In this document: positions 30,983 through 40,004 of the stretch, in pieces
How the letters are laid out: each line of letters begins with the position of its first letter
Numbering within the stretch: the first letter of the stretch is position 1
Assembly (NCBI GenBank): GCA_026692905.1
Contig: JAPLNL010000119.1
Coordinates: 62,001 to 126,000, forward strand
Origin: Planctomycetota bacterium
GTDB lineage: Bacteria > Planctomycetota > Planctomycetia > Pirellulales > Pirellulaceae
Direction: 5' to 3'
Length of the DNA: 64,000 nucleotides
Made by a program: the position numbers and the translations under genes
The notes under the pieces: generated by a model
The model's input: the letters and a program-made list of their open reading frames with translations, nothing else
Told to the model about the DNA's origin: nothing
Database searches by the model: none

Positions 30983-31939
30983 ATGAAAACGCTTGCTACC
31001 ACTTTTGCGATGGCTTCATTCGGTCTTGCGATCCTTTCTGGTTGCAATATGCCGCAATTTTCTGCGAAACGAGATTATCAAAAGGTCATTCCGATCAATT
31101 CTCAGGTCAACGTAAATGCCGAAACATTCAACGGCAGCATTACCGTAACCCCAACGGACCAATCGGAGGTGGCATTGGTCGCTCACATCAAGAGCCATGG
31201 TTACACTCAGGAAGAAGCAGACGCCGCGCTGGACTCACTAACGCCCGTCATCGATACAACCGCTTCCACATTGACAATCGCTTGCAAGCGTCGCAATCAA
31301 ACTCTCATGTACTCGGATTCGGTTAGCTTGGAGCTGAAGGTACCCGCAAGCTGGCCATTGATACTGTCGACTTCGAACGGGGCGGTCTCGACCACTCAAA
31401 GTCGCGGACCTGTTAGCATCCATACTTCCAACGGAAAAATCGAAGTCAGAGAAGCAGCCGGCTCGCTTCAACTTTCGACCAGCAACGGGAAGATTATTGT
31501 TGAAAACTCGGCCGGCAATATTCAGGCAAGTTCAAGTAACGGAGTTGTTGAAATGACCAACTGTTCGCTCGAGGGGAAATGCAAATTGGAGACGAGCAAT
31601 GGCCAAATCAAAGTCAGCTTTTCCGACCGCAGCCCAATCAAACTTGACGCAAGCACTTCGAATGGCTCTATCCAATTCAATGAAGCCGACGCCGATTTGA
31701 CCAAGAATTCAAAGACTCATGTCGCGGGAGTGCTTTTCGGTAAAGCAAACGGACCAATACCAGCTAGCTCCTTAGACCTCGAAACTTCCAATGGAAACAT
31801 CACCATCTCGACGGAGTCCGCGAGTTCAAAGACCAAGACTCTCTCGTATTTATCCTCCCTTGAGACCGTGGGGCAAGCCCCACGGCTACAAATTGTCGCC
31901 GCTATCGCGGCTAAGAACAAAGCGCTCGTCGCATACTAG
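30983..31939 (+). CDS. DUF4097-like (putative adhesin) lipoprotein with a repeat-derived C terminus
   Basis: A 318-residue lipoprotein with lipobox ILSGC (Cys21). The body is a beta-solenoid ladder built from strands that each end in the tripeptide S-N-G (for example LSTSNGAV, IHTSNGKI, LSTSNGKI, SSSNGVV, LETSNGQI, ASTSNGSI), the hallmark of DUF4097 proteins. The last 25 or so residues (ETVGQAPRLQIVAAIAAKN and on) are translated from the family A repeat at 31862-31924, so the original C terminus was replaced. Function unknown; a structural or adhesive role in the periplasm is inference. Confidence 0.8.
   Translation: MKTLATTFAMASFGLAILSGCNMPQFSAKRDYQKVIPINSQVNVNAETFNGSITVTPTDQSEVALVAHIKSHGYTQEEADAALDSLTPVIDTTASTLTIACKRRNQTLMYSDSVSLELKVPASWPLILSTSNGAVSTTQSRGPVSIHTSNGKIEVREAAGSLQLSTSNGKIIVENSAGNIQASSSNGVVEMTNCSLEGKCKLETSNGQIKVSFSDRSPIKLDASTSNGSIQFNEADADLTKNSKTHVAGVLFGKANGPIPASSLDLETSNGNITISTESASSKTKTLSYLSSLETVGQAPRLQIVAAIAAKNKALVAY
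31862..31924. repeat. Repeat family A, copy A2, inside a coding region
   Basis: GAGACCGTGGGGCAAGCCCC with the hairpin arms GTGGGGC/GCCCCAC, followed by GTCGCCGCTATCGCGGCTAA. Nearly identical to the second modules of A1 and A3. It is open in the lipoprotein frame and provides its last codons; the stop follows 13 bases after it. Confidence 0.9.
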
Positions 31940-32764: not shown

Positions 32765-32889
32765 GCGGTGAAGCATTTTCCGCTGCTAAAACAAACATTT
32801 TTGTAGCGAAAGTCGTCAAAACTTTCGGCTGCATTGCATAAACCACCGAAACTCTTGACGAGTTTCGCTACAAAGTGCTTCTCAGCGTT
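32765..32889. repeat. Repeat family C, copy C2
   Basis: Left end GCGGTGAAGCATTTTCCGC, core TGTAGCGAAAGTCGTC ... CTCTTGACGAGTTTCGCTAC, right end AAAGTGCTTCTCAGCGTT. Terminal and inner parts are inverted repeats. The remainder of the 32726-33069 gap shows no gene. Confidence 0.85.
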
Positions 32890-33069
32890 CCCGAATAACG
32901 GTTAATGAGCGAAGATTAGTGTTCCTCTATTTGCAATGAAGTAGAATTCGGCGATTCAGAAGACCAACCATTCCGGTTTAGTTCGTTTGATTGGCTCGCA
33001 TTGGGTGACTTAGCTCATCCGTTCGAGTCAAGTCATGTCCTGCATCCGATTCAAAACCGAAACCTCACA

Positions 33070-34221
33070 ATGCTTAACAAAGACTCGCTTGATACGTTAT
33101 CTCGAACGGCGTTGGATTCTGTCAAACGAGCGGCGTTGATCCAGCACTCTCACTTCCCAGTCAACGCCGGCGAAGTGGAGTGTACTTCTTGGCGGTCGAA
33201 TGGTTTTAGTGACTCCGCTATCTACCGACTTGCAACAGAGGCTGGTGTGTTTGCCATCCGTAGTTGGCCGAATCGATTTGACACACCCTCAAAAGTCGAG
33301 TTTTGGTCGAGCACCAACAATTCGTTTGCGGGCGAAACGAACAGTTTATCCCATGTCGGAGCCTCCAACCCAATGCCGTTTCCCAAAATCGTGGAATGGT
33401 ATTCAATGGATACATCCTTTGGATTACTGCTGCCGTATGCAAACAAGCTGTGGACGCTTTGCGAATGGGTTGAGGGGAAACCAGTCGAAGCCAAAGGTGT
33501 TTCCAAATCAACGGTTCAGCATCTTGCCACCATACTGGGGCGACTCCATTCGAATTCAATCCAAGTGTTGCAAGCCTCAGGCTCACCCGTTCCCAAGCAA
33601 ATGATGCGATCCAATTCGCTTCGAGAGCGATTGGAGCTTCTGAAAACGATGGACTATCGCTTGTTGGCGGCCTGCGATCCAACCGAATTTTTCGCAAACA
33701 ATCTGTTGCTAGAGAAGGTAAAACACTGTTTGGCAATCGTGCTGGAGCGGCAGCCAAGTTGGCTTCGTTTTCTAACCATATGCGAGTCGCAGAATCGCGA
33801 ATGCCATTGGATCGTTCGCGATCTTTGGTTCGAAAATATCCTGGTTGACGAGCGACAGTATTTTTCATCGATCGTAGACTTAGGGGCAGCCCGACTTGAC
33901 TGGCCCGGGCTCGATTTTGTTAGGCTTTTTGGGAGTCTATCCTATAGGGATGGCGATCGTACCGTCTTCTCGGGTGACGATAGTGACGAAGAACTTTGGA
34001 ACGATGCCTATGGCGCGTACACTCAATCGCATACCGACCATGCAATAGAGTCTCTCGAAGAATGCAAGATGCTTCATAAAGTGTCACTTGGACTTTCTCT
34101 TTTCCAGTGGGTACTCTGGAATAAAGCAGGAAGCATCGATCTGACCAACTCGGACAAAGTACAACGTGTGTCCAAGCGGATAGCTGCAATCTGCGACCAA
34201 GTGTTGACTGCGGTTCAGTAG
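33070..34221 (+). CDS. Phosphotransferase-family (APH/choline kinase-like) protein
   Basis: About 383 residues with a kinase-like C-terminal lobe: WIVRDLWFENILVDERQ (catalytic loop, D and N present) and SIVDLGAARLDWPGLDFVRLFGS (metal-binding D, matching the 'iDf..a..g....Dla' block). The first position of the usual H-G-D-x-x-x-x-N motif is Val-Arg-Asp rather than His-Gly-Asp. ATP-dependent phosphorylation of a small molecule is likely if active; the substrate is unknown. ATG at 33070 and TTG at 33001 are both possible starts without a good ribosome binding site. Convergent with the ABC-like gene. Confidence 0.7.
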   Translation: MLNKDSLDTLSRTALDSVKRAALIQHSHFPVNAGEVECTSWRSNGFSDSAIYRLATEAGVFAIRSWPNRFDTPSKVEFWSSTNNSFAGETNSLSHVGASNPMPFPKIVEWYSMDTSFGLLLPYANKLWTLCEWVEGKPVEAKGVSKSTVQHLATILGRLHSNSIQVLQASGSPVPKQMMRSNSLRERLELLKTMDYRLLAACDPTEFFANNLLLEKVKHCLAIVLERQPSWLRFLTICESQNRECHWIVRDLWFENILVDERQYFSSIVDLGAARLDWPGLDFVRLFGSLSYRDGDRTVFSGDDSDEELWNDAYGAYTQSHTDHAIESLEECKMLHKVSLGLSLFQWVLWNKAGSIDLTNSDKVQRVSKRIAAICDQVLTAVQ

Positions 34222-34374: not shown

Positions 34375-36228
34375 TTAGTGTTTGCTTTCGAGAAACGGAG
34401 AGAACTGCATGTAGTTTAGATGCCGGTAGATCTCGCTTTGCTCTAGCAACTGCGCATGGTTGCCGACACCAGCAACTTTGTGTTCATGGATAACGATGAT
34501 TTGATCGGCTGCACGCAACGTTGACAAACGCTGCGTCAGCACAACCAATAAAGTGCTTTCCGATTTGAGTTGCAGAATCGAATCCAGCGTTTCGGATTCG
34601 GTAGTCGGCTTGACTCGCGCGCTGGGTTCTTGGGCAACGATGAGACTGCGTTTCTTGACGAGGGCCCTTGCTAGTCCGATGCGAAACAAAGCGTCTGGAA
34701 GCAAGCGATCTTCATCCGGCGTAACCAAGGTTGCAAGGCCGTCTGGCAAGTTCGAAATGGCGTCGGAAACATGCACTCTTTTGGCAATGCTCATCAGATC
34801 CACGGTGGCGTCGGGTGAAACAACGGACCACAGGTTGTCTTCCACTGTTCCGTGTACCAAGGGGCCGCGAGCCGTGGCCCACAATGAGAGATTTCGAATC
34901 GCAGAAGGATCGAGATCGGTCGAGTCCACTCCATCTACCAAGATTCGTCCGCTTGCCGGACGTCCAAATCCAAAGATCAATTCCGCGAACGCGCTGGCTT
35001 GAACGCTTTGGCTAGCAACGACTGCTGTCAATTGCCCTGGCCTAATCGTTGTCGAAATGTCTTCAAGAAGTTTTTGACCGGAACTGTTCTTAATCGTCAC
35101 GTGATCCAAAACAATACTTTGCAAAATCTTCGTTGGGACAATTCGGTTTTCTTGACTTACGTCTGGAGTGGTTTGCTCAAGGTAGGACGAGAGGCGTTCA
35201 GCGGCTGGTTCCGCCGCTTTGTAGCGTTGGTATGCGCGGTGCAAACGCTGTACGCCGGCTACAGCAAGCGTGATCGAACTGCACAGCACCAAAATCTCGC
35301 CAAAATGTAGGCTCGACGATTCGTCGAGAAAACGAATGGAAACAACAATCATCAAGAACGCGCCGAGCGCAGCGGAGGTCGACAACATGACTGGTGATTT
35401 CCAAGTTCCTCCATCGGCCAGCTGCAACTGTGCTGATCGATACGAATTCAAGTGAGCTTCGTAGCTAAGTTTCGTATCCTCTTGGTCGTGTACAAACGCC
35501 AACAAGGGAGCCGTATTGCACAAATAGGAAAGTTGTTCACTGGCTGCTCGAGCTCGTTCAAAAAGCACGGGTCGCCTTTTTCTTCGCGTCGACTCCAAGC
35601 TAGCAAACAGAACCCAAACGAACATCGTGCAGATCAACGCCAGTAGCGTAATCCAAAGATGGATCGAAGCTGCCAACATCAATAGCAAACTCGCTTGGAT
35701 GATGTGCCTAGGGAGAACTCGAAACCACTGACTCATTGATTCTCGAATCGTAGGCACGTGCACGAAGAGCATTTCGTGCATCGCGTCCTGTTGGCCAGAC
35801 AGCCCTTGTTCCATCGCGAGCGCACCGGATTTGCCAAAGAGTTTTCTCTGCAGTTCAACAGTGATATCGAGAGCGGTGTGCAGTGCGGCACGATACGAGG
35901 TGAGCAGCGCGATGCACTCGATCGCTATTACAATAACGAGCAAAACGACAATGCCGAAAACGCCTCGCAGAATGCTTCCTCCCGCATTAAGCCAAGAAGA
36001 GTTCAACGTAAAGAATCTTCCGACGGATAGCTGTGCCGGCAAGTTTGCGACCGTCTTGCCTTCGGTCATCGAGACTTGACCTGCTAGCAGCAATTGAATC
36101 AACCAACCCCCTAGCACCAGCAGGATTGGGATGAGAACGCCCGCGAGTGTACCGAAAATCCAAACTGCCCATTGGTGCTCAGGCATCTTGATTTGCTGGA
36201 CCAAACGCTGCCAAACTCGTGAGTGCAA
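34375..36228 (-). CDS. ABC exporter-like membrane protein with degenerate ATPase domain
   Basis: A 617-residue fusion of a six-helix exporter-type membrane domain (residues 1-345) and an ABC ATPase-like domain (about 365-600). The ATPase half aligns along its whole length (DISTTIRPGQLTAVV, SGRILVDGVDSTDLD, AIRNLSLWA, GTVEDNLW, ISNLPDGLATLV, IGLARALVKKRSLIV, QRLSTLRAADQIIVIHEHKVAGVGNH), yet Walker A is ASQSVQASA with no GK, the signature LSGGQ is LPDAL, the Walker B Asp is Gln (AQEPS) and the switch His is Gln (TQRLST). ATP hydrolysis by this chain is very unlikely. TTG at 36228 follows a perfect AGGAGG; the frame extends to 36264. It is divergent from the NtrC-type gene. Confidence 0.8.
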   Translation of the reverse strand: MHSRVWQRLVQQIKMPEHQWAVWIFGTLAGVLIPILLVLGGWLIQLLLAGQVSMTEGKTVANLPAQLSVGRFFTLNSSWLNAGGSILRGVFGIVVLLVIVIAIECIALLTSYRAALHTALDITVELQRKLFGKSGALAMEQGLSGQQDAMHEMLFVHVPTIRESMSQWFRVLPRHIIQASLLLMLAASIHLWITLLALICTMFVWVLFASLESTRRKRRPVLFERARAASEQLSYLCNTAPLLAFVHDQEDTKLSYEAHLNSYRSAQLQLADGGTWKSPVMLSTSAALGAFLMIVVSIRFLDESSSLHFGEILVLCSSITLAVAGVQRLHRAYQRYKAAEPAAERLSSYLEQTTPDVSQENRIVPTKILQSIVLDHVTIKNSSGQKLLEDISTTIRPGQLTAVVASQSVQASAFAELIFGFGRPASGRILVDGVDSTDLDPSAIRNLSLWATARGPLVHGTVEDNLWSVVSPDATVDLMSIAKRVHVSDAISNLPDGLATLVTPDEDRLLPDALFRIGLARALVKKRSLIVAQEPSARVKPTTESETLDSILQLKSESTLLVVLTQRLSTLRAADQIIVIHEHKVAGVGNHAQLLEQSEIYRHLNYMQFSPFLESKH

Positions 36229-36480
36229 AATGAAAATCCTCCTAAAGGCATCAAACGGAACCACTCCAGGATATTCCTAAGAACCCGCAACGTCTTGCTC
36301 TTAAGGGCTGATTTTAACGATTTTACCATCGATTCGATCTGCTTTCGGCAAAGAAAGGGTACTGTCTCAAGAATCGTGGCGTTTGCACAGCATGTTGCGA
36401 AAAGTCAACCTATGTTTCCGAAGTGCGGCAAAGGACACAGCTTTACCTATCCTCAGACTCTTCCAGTCACGATTCCAGTT

Positions 36481-37941
36481 ATGGCAAATCACAACGCAAA
36501 GAATGAGCTAAAGGCTCGACTCCTCATCGCGGATGACGATCAATGGCTCTTGCAGTCCATGGCGGAATGGCTTTCCGGCGAAGGCTACGCGGTTCAAACA
36601 GCCAACAGCATCGAGCAAACAACCAAGATATTGGCCAAAGAGACCTTCGATTTGCTTTTGTGCGATGTTCGTTTCGACGATGGCGATGGAATTGCTTTGC
36701 TTCGAAAAGTTCAAAAACGTTTTCCTCAATTGCCGGTCCTTATGATGACTGGCTACGCTGGTCCGGATGCAGCCCGCGAGTCGATTGCCGCCGGCGCCTT
36801 CGAACTCTTGACGAAGCCTATTATCGATGACGAGCTTCAAACCGCCATCACACGGGCTCTGCAACAAAAGAACATGACCGAAGAGAACGAACGCCTTAAA
36901 GAAGCGCTCGATCGTCGATTTGGCCTTGAGAGTATCGTCAGTCATGATCTCAGAATGCTCAAGATTTTTGAGATGATCGATAACGTGGCCGATTCTCGAG
37001 CCTCGATTCTGATTACCGGCGAGAATGGTACCGGCAAAAGCATGATCGCTCGCGCTATCCATAAAAAATCGTCGCGACGCAAAGCGCCCTTTGTGGAAGT
37101 TGCTTGCGGAGCCCTCCCTGATACGTTGCTTGAAAGCGAATTATTTGGCCACATGGCTGGTGCCTTCACTGGCGCCACGCACAATAAAGTGGGCAAGTTT
37201 CAGCAATCGGATCGCGGGACGATTTTCCTAGACGAAATCGGGACTGCGAGCCAATCGCTACAAGTGAAGTTGCTGCGAGTTCTGCAGGAACTACAATTCG
37301 AACCTCTTGGTGGTACCGAGACGATTTCCGTCGACACACGGACGATTTTGGCAACGAATGAGAACCTCGATATCGCCGTTGCGGAAGGGCGCTTTCGGCA
37401 GGACTTGTTCTACCGCGTCAACGTGATCCATATCGAATTGCCATCGCTTCGCGAGCGGCCAGATGACATTCCGTTGCTCGCAGAACACTTTCTTCGAAGT
37501 GCGGCCAAGGAGTTCGGACGGGAAGTGGATCGTATCACCAACGACGCCATGAAAGCGATGCAGGCCCACCGCTGGCCCGGTAATATCCGAGAGCTTGAAA
37601 ACGTAATCCAACGCGCTGTTCTATTGACCAAGTCGCGAAGCATCGACAGCGAATCGTTGCCCAGGTCGATATTGGGTGGAGTGATAAATCCTTCCCAACC
37701 AAGCGTTCGTGAAGCAGAGACAAGGGCCTCAGTCCAATCGCCCCCAAGCCGAATCGCGACTGAAGTTCCTCAAACATTAAGCGAAGCCCTCGAAGCCCCT
37801 GAACGTCAGATCATTTTGAATGTTCTCAAATCCAACGATTGGAATCGAAACATAACGGCAGATCAGTTGGGTATCAACCGAACGACCCTTTATAAGAAAA
37901 TGAAGAAGCTCGGGATCGAGTCGTTGACACAATTGCAATAA
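36481..37941 (+). CDS. NtrC-family sigma-54-dependent response regulator
   Basis: A 486-residue regulator with three domains. The receiver (1-125) has the acidic residues D18-D20, phosphoacceptor Asp62 and Lys112. The AAA+ domain (about 150-390) has Walker A GENGTGKS at 180-187, the sigma-54 contact loop GAFTGA at 227-232, Walker B GTIFLDEIG and the arginine finger region FRQDLFYRVNV. The Fis-type helix-turn-helix at the end is ITADQLGINRTTLYKKMKKLGI. It should activate sigma-54 promoters after phosphorylation. No histidine kinase gene is next to it. The start ATG 36481 gives a normal N terminus; the open frame upstream to 36223 is not family-like. Confidence 0.93.
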   Translation: MANHNAKNELKARLLIADDDQWLLQSMAEWLSGEGYAVQTANSIEQTTKILAKETFDLLLCDVRFDDGDGIALLRKVQKRFPQLPVLMMTGYAGPDAARESIAAGAFELLTKPIIDDELQTAITRALQQKNMTEENERLKEALDRRFGLESIVSHDLRMLKIFEMIDNVADSRASILITGENGTGKSMIARAIHKKSSRRKAPFVEVACGALPDTLLESELFGHMAGAFTGATHNKVGKFQQSDRGTIFLDEIGTASQSLQVKLLRVLQELQFEPLGGTETISVDTRTILATNENLDIAVAEGRFRQDLFYRVNVIHIELPSLRERPDDIPLLAEHFLRSAAKEFGREVDRITNDAMKAMQAHRWPGNIRELENVIQRAVLLTKSRSIDSESLPRSILGGVINPSQPSVREAETRASVQSPPSRIATEVPQTLSEALEAPERQIILNVLKSNDWNRNITADQLGINRTTLYKKMKKLGIESLTQLQ

Positions 37942-39614: not shown

Positions 39615-39880
39615 CAAGCGCCGTGAAACGCTACGCTGTTTCGCATTTTGTAGCGAAACTCGTCAAGAGTTTCGGTGGTTTACGCAATGCAGCCGAAAGT
39701 CTTGACGACTTTCGCTACAGAAAAGCCCAATTTACATTGAGCAGAATGCGAAACAGCGTTGCGTGAAACGGCGCCACCACAACGTGGCGCCGTTTCACGG
39801 CGCTTGTATCCATCGTACGTAGAGACCATGGGGCAAGCCCCATGGCTACAAAATGTCGCCGCTATCGCGGCTAAGAAACA
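39615..39880. repeat. Repeat family A, copy A3, interrupted by element C3
   Basis: Outer arms CAAGCGCCGTGAAACG (39615-39630) and CGTTTCACGGCGCTTG (39791-39806) form the first family A hairpin, split by C3. The second module (GAGACCATGGGGCAAGCCCC, then GTCGCCGCTATCGCGGCTAA) runs to 39880. A decayed family C-like core follows to about 39950. The rest of the 39511-40004 gap has no gene. Confidence 0.9.
39631..39761. mobile_element. Family C element C3 (MITE-like) with 9-bp target duplication
   Basis: A 131-bp element with 20-bp terminal inverted repeats (CTACGCTGTTTCGCATTTTG; 18 of 20 match) and the family C inner hairpin (GTAGCGAAACTCGTC ... GACGACTTTCGCTAC). It is flanked by the direct repeat CGTGAAACG (39622-39630 and 39762-39770). 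Copy A1 at 16447 shows the same hairpin arm without insertion. No coding capacity. Confidence 0.9.
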
Positions 39881-40004
39881 AGTCTATCTCCGTTGCGAAA
39901 GTTGTAAAACTTCCTGGATTTTGAGGCACTTCAGGAACTCTTACGAGATTCCACTGCTTGCTAATTCAACGCCATTTGGGCTAATCCCGACGGGTAGCCG
40001 CATA

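Follow-up and report, generated by a model that had tools for sequence, protein, structure and literature searches.

The window, that is, the whole stretch of 64,000 nucleotides analyzed here, carries on its minus strand a gene (34375..36228) whose intact frame and AlphaFold2 model mark its product as a pseudo-ABC exporter half of 617 amino acids, counted from a TTG start. The open frame is uninterrupted over this entire interval, as an earlier note on this DNA had claimed, and an extension to a GTG is possible up to position 36264. Given that a TAG stop lies just upstream of the gene in the close relatives L019-L021, the TTG at 36228 or an internal ATG is favored over the GTG as the start. 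Near its C-terminus the protein contains a family-specific motif, YRHLNYMQF (residues 601-609; 34402..34428 on the minus strand), which was recognized in the family alignment and is less conserved in some of the basal relatives described below.

The gene is divergent from that of an NtrC-type response regulator (36481..37941, plus strand), in which domain matches identify a receiver, a sigma-54 AAA+ module and a Fis HTH; this neighbor, already pointed out in the earlier note, is real, and the same divergent arrangement is seen in all 18 same-genus loci. A search upstream of the family gene for a sigma-54 -24/-12 site yielded none above shuffled sequences. The element TGCGAAAAGTCAACCT is located at 36396-36411, between the exporter-like and the NtrC-type genes; it is exact in the window and in 6 of the 18 same-genus loci, occurs with two or fewer mismatches in 3 more, and was not found in 9. 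It may be a regulatory site or belong to an N-terminal extension. Also next to the exporter-like gene, an APH-type kinase-like protein is encoded at 33001-34221 (PF01636, 42.5 bits). The surroundings further contain a dispersed repeat with two 80-nt copies that are 85% alike (31843-31922 and 39803-39882) and an inverted pair of 91 nt with 91% complementarity (32798-32888 and 39633-39723). The PADLOC search for defence systems returned nothing beyond a partial, weak match to mad3 (24.6 bits), and a plasmid search gave zero matches at 1e-40.

Predicted fold and the former ATP site

In the AlphaFold2 prediction, computed with 44 family sequences as input, the whole chain has a mean pLDDT of 89.6 and a pTM of 0.78, and combines the transmembrane helices of an exporter with a complete nucleotide-binding domain (NBD). 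The transmembrane domain (TMD), with its model helices within residues 19-338 (35215..36174, minus strand), was delineated using the predicted secondary structure and Kyte-Doolittle peaks, and the pseudo-NBD (residues 362-610; 34399..35145, minus strand) using the model and an alignment to solved ABC NBDs. The first Foldseek match of the model is MsbA (E 1.5e-28), VIA-align gives a Z-score of 28.5 both to TmrAB (578 residues) and to MsbA (563 residues), and the pseudo-NBD aligns with 2ghi over 247 residues (Z 26.8, rmsd 2.4). The model and the structure matches, extending over 563-578 residues, agree on an exporter membrane domain that is joined to one with the ABC-NBD fold. The identity of the protein as a complete type IV (MsbA/TmrAB-like) exporter half is well supported by this predicted fold, and the full exporter-half layout asserted in the earlier note, for which structure prediction had been suggested as a check, is borne out concordantly by AlphaFold2, Foldseek and VIA-align.

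By sequence, the window protein is remote. The Pfam ABC_tran model scores 22.1 bits, below its cut-off of 25 bits, and the window gene is not among the matches of PF00664 in its own genome at E <= 1e-5. The best NCBIfam model, MsbA_lipidA (TIGR02203), matches with an E-value of 1.6e-37, but its 129.2 bits compare with a curated cut-off of 602.

Alignment reveals an alteration of the catalytic motifs. The Walker A position is occupied by ASQSVQASA (residues 405-413; 34990..35016, minus strand), which, as the earlier note had observed of its missing G-K, does not conform to GxxGxGK[ST]. At the position of the signature (LSGGQRQR) the protein has LLPDALFR (residues 509-516; 34681..34704, minus strand); the loss of the signature reported earlier is genuine, but the pentapeptide LPDAL then given for it was placed one residue late, LSGGQ being aligned to LLPDA (residues 509-513). 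The Walker B Asp-Glu position reads Gln533-Glu534 (34627..34632, minus strand), and the switch histidine is replaced by Gln566 (34531..34533, minus strand), which is followed by the invariant Arg567, both substitutions being as previously described. Compared with ordinary exporters from this genome and its order, the protein also lacks the Q-loop Gln. The former statement that every ATPase motif is lost thus stands for Walker A, the signature, the Walker B Asp and the switch His, but is slightly too strong in that the catalytic Glu534 is kept.

The same condition is encountered throughout the family. Scored for how many of 12 catalytic positions carry the canonical residue, the window protein attains 2 of 12, and the family ranges from 1 to 5 in a set of 95 sequences that includes the window, some near-identical sequences and a few truncated at contig ends, and from 2 to 7 in 30 further class-level relatives, as against 11-12 in 36 ordinary exporters. 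Neither Walker A Gly4 and Gly6 nor the SGG of the LSGGQ signature is present in any of 125 family sequences, which come from several families of the class and include the window. The Walker B Asp is found in a single sequence (L109) out of 124, and the catalytic Glu beside it is retained in all 123 sequences having a residue there; as a pair, the two acidic residues do not characterize the family. Other positions display recurrent substitutions, namely Ala at Walker A position 9 (89/95), Asp or Glu at Walker A position 3 (79/95), Phe or Tyr in place of the signature Gln7 (83/94), and Pro directly after the catalytic Glu (88/94). Judging from these alignment columns, the former ATP site has acquired a new consensus and is not mere noise. 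The 30 basal relatives retain the Lys in 14, the Gln in 15 and the His in 10 cases, and all three are lost in the window's genus. The greater retention of catalytic residues in the basal relatives suggests that the loss was stepwise, with the P-loop glycines disappearing early.

Phyletic spread and selection

Within the window's genus the gene is present in 25 of 26 genomes, the exception being a genome that is 77% complete; these relatives were drawn from a 60-genome search in which 38 genomes had a match, 3 of them (G049, G050 and G052) representing ordinary exporters. At the level of the order, matches reach at least 391 bits in 44 of 296 genomes, the next one being at 299 bits, and the motifs are lost in all 44 of these members, each of which was inspected. 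A search of 392 genomes of the phylum recovered the gene in 28 genomes from two further families, and here too it is motif-less in 28 of 28. A further search of 317 genomes of the class matched 215 genomes at E <= 1e-97, a number that includes the ordinary exporter of G070; this match and that of G048, both near 331 bits, were excluded from the family. From this search 30 loci were chosen, including the lowest-scoring ones of the newly found families, and it is these that the motif counts cover; the P-loop glycines are absent in all of them. No orthologue with intact motifs was found among the 125 sequences inspected across the class, and the loss of the motifs, for which the earlier note had proposed an orthologue search, is fixed class-wide.

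In a tree from which 85 motif columns had been removed, 26 family members and 36 ordinary exporters are split by one branch with an SH-aLRT of 100, and the family is therefore a single clade even without the columns that define its degeneration. Some of the terminal branches are long, which leaves the deep order inside the family unsure. In the simplest scenario, the motifs disappeared once, no later than in the common ancestor of the class, and some lineages subsequently discarded the entire gene on repeated occasions. These phyletic patterns show that the disappearance of the ATP-binding motifs is old and ancestral as opposed to a recent decay.

The gene has continued to evolve under purifying selection. 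Where synonymous divergence is unsaturated, the whole-gene dN/dS lies between 0.015 and 0.26, and it is low in every computable pair, which answers the question about silent and replacement changes raised in the earlier note. Among 22 pairs examined, dN/dS is lower in the NBD than in the TMD in all 13 in which both are defined, and the greater constraint on the pseudo-ATPase domain suggests that the protein acts mainly through its cytosolic part. Between the window and G006 the dN of the family gene is 0.63, and that of two ordinary exporters from the same genomes is 0.22-0.30. The family thus changes at about two to three times the rate of ordinary exporters when the same genomes are compared, implying that the constraint on it is weaker than that on ordinary exporters. 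The motif loss and the fast evolution would be compatible with a pseudogene in decay or with an artefact of assembly, but carriage in nearly all same-genus genomes, the class-wide extent of the loss and dN/dS values far below 1 rule out recent decay or artefact, and we accord this explanation practically no probability. The proposal of the earlier note that the protein is selected without ATP hydrolysis is well supported by the combination of low dN/dS, a class-wide fixed loss and the lack of any intact orthologue among the sequences compared. It withstood both checks that the note had named as able to overturn it, one for intact orthologues at this locus and one for a sequencing or assembly artefact.

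The NosY-like permease neighbor

In most lineages the family gene is located directly downstream of a permease gene on the same strand. This arrangement was found with tblastn in 33 of 41 order-level loci from outside the window's genus; it was also seen in 26 of 28 loci of two further families and, with a flank of 1.5 kb examined, in 21 of 30 additional loci of the class. The other genes flanking the family gene vary between loci, and no conserved ATPase gene was found beside the pair in the loci examined. Adjacency is seen in none of the 18 loci of the window's genus and in none of 8 loci from g7, g44 and g54, which are further genera of its family. In the window's genome the permease is encoded alone on another contig (L145:1498-3261; G000 contig C22). 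The permease gene itself is present, mostly as a single copy, in 278 of the 296 genomes of the order, including all 44 that have the family. In 19 permease loci of family-less genomes the permease has no exporter half as a neighbor, a survey in which a longer antisense frame masked the permease during ORF picking in L155 and L158; in one of these loci (L174) an ABC ATPase-like gene (52 bits) is situated two genes from the permease.

The model of the permease has a pLDDT of 87.6, and its C-terminal part (approximately 270 of 587 residues) matches NosY. The top 8 Foldseek matches are all NosY, with a probability of 1.00 and TMt of 0.59-0.71, at weak E-values of 3.1e-3 to 8e-3, none being below 0.001, and the Pfam ABC2 models score under their cut-offs. 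For the N-terminal ~290 residues, which comprise helices and a beta-rich part, no clear PDB match was found. The sequences of a conserved neighbor cluster, c19, proved to be the antisense of the permease. In some families, genes for a GNAT acetyltransferase and two M16 peptidases lie ahead of the permease gene (L066:2703-8377, L133:615-5961 and L156:1548-6597), these assignments being based on Pfam in L066 and L156 and on similarity clusters alone in L133.

Candidate roles and relation to known ABC systems

We favor, with a probability of roughly 0.45, the reading that the window protein is one member of an ancient pseudo-ABC exporter family that assists or regulates the NosY-like permease as one of its subunits, independently of ATP. 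The mechanism that we infer is one in which the protein probably dimerises in the manner of an exporter, its pseudo-ATPase domains would meet without nucleotide, and the resulting subunit would act on the permease, whose energy might come from an ATPase encoded elsewhere or might not be needed at all. Given that many genomes without the family protein retain the permease, this protein would modulate or complete the permease and not drive it. Some nucleotide contact may be possible in the basal relatives, which keep up to 7 of the 12 residues. It could also be conceived, tentatively, that across the class a nucleotide-free and constitutively held pseudo-ATPase dimer serves as a scaffold or gate for the NosY-like permease, the ABC fold having been reused mechanically or regulatorily with new chemistry at the former site, namely the invariant Glu followed by Pro, the aromatic residue in place of the signature Gln, and the Ala that ends the old P-loop.

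Several other explanations have to be weighed against these. The protein might itself be an ATP-independent conduit or lipid scramblase, in which a homodimeric pathway opens without nucleotide and the permease belongs to the same pathway but to another complex. Such a role would be consistent with the retention, under selection, of a complete exporter membrane domain, and a gene pair is no proof of a complex; we nevertheless consider it rather unlikely, since in every pair with computable values for both domains the stronger constraint falls on the pseudo-ATPase domain and not on the membrane domain. The earlier note had listed a lock and a sensor among the roles of the protein, and either may still apply. 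A sensor of nucleotides or metabolites, whose altered site would still accommodate a ligand, possibly a nucleotide held differently, and pass the effect of binding on to the membrane domain or to the permease, would account for the invariant Glu, the frequent acidic residue at Walker A position 3 and the partial retention of Lys, Gln and His in the basal relatives, and the NtrC-type regulator adjoining the gene in the window's genus would also fit a sensory role. The absence of the P-loop glycines from all 125 sequences and the additional loss of Lys, Gln and His in the window's genus argue against it, and we regard it as improbable.

The earlier note had also entertained the dead half of a heterodimer and had recommended a search for an intact partner, and exporters with one degenerate site are indeed well known, PMC7756269 describing composite ATP sites. 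The window's genome encodes at least four ordinary exporters from which a live half could be supplied. In a first small set, one group of these was present in 8 of 8 family-bearing genomes versus 1 of 4 family-less ones; in the search of 296 genomes the same candidate partner group occurs in 33 of the 44 family-bearing genomes versus 55 of the 252 family-less ones, a comparison in which kinship is ignored. The candidate group is accordingly enriched with the family but is not obligatory, being absent from 11 of the 44, and the other common group of ordinary exporters occurs both with and without the family. Furthermore, no second exporter half was detected near the family gene in 59 order-level loci, and neither a linked nor a constantly co-occurring partner emerged. 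As the window chain supplies neither Walker A nor signature, even a heterodimer would probably be devoid of any complete composite site, unlike the known heterodimers, and this explanation strikes us as very unlikely.

The family can be set against several known systems. ABC exporters are defined by ATP sites at the NBD interface. With MsbA and other type IV homodimeric exporters, which provide the best Foldseek matches, the family shares its full-length fold and layout, but it differs from them in lacking the P-loop, the Walker B Asp, the signature and the switch His, and in the pairing of its gene with an ABC-2 permease gene in most lineages. TmrAB, TM287/288, MsRv1273c/72c and BmrCD have the fold in common with it and have likewise lost catalytic residues in one chain. 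Such heterodimers retain ATP binding at the degenerate site and have a complete second site, whereas the family chain has lost Walker A and the signature together and has no linked partner half. SUR1/SUR2 and CFTR, which are exporter-type ABC proteins that gate or regulate channels, exemplify the kind of reuse of the exporter fold for regulation or gating that we propose for the family; they still use nucleotides, and unlike them the family is without a P-loop. In NosDFY, an ABC-2 (type V) system, NosY works with the active ATPase NosF; the permease associated with the family differs in having no conserved ATPase gene beside it, its neighbor being the pseudo-exporter. To our knowledge, all known degenerate exporters keep at least ATP binding, and our literature search found no description of a class-wide ATP-less exporter.

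If the proposed role is correct, it would mean that a nucleotide is dispensable for the exporter architecture to work or to be put to another use, and the family would constitute a natural dead mutant for asking which of the movements of an exporter need ATP. In Planctopirus limnophila, according to PMC10632474, the essential proteins include 108 that are planctomycete-specific and of unknown function. Members of the present family are easily annotated as ordinary ATP-binding exporters, as exemplified by MsbA_lipidA being the best NCBIfam model at a score far below its cut-off, and the counts of transporters in planctomycetes may consequently be wrong at such loci.
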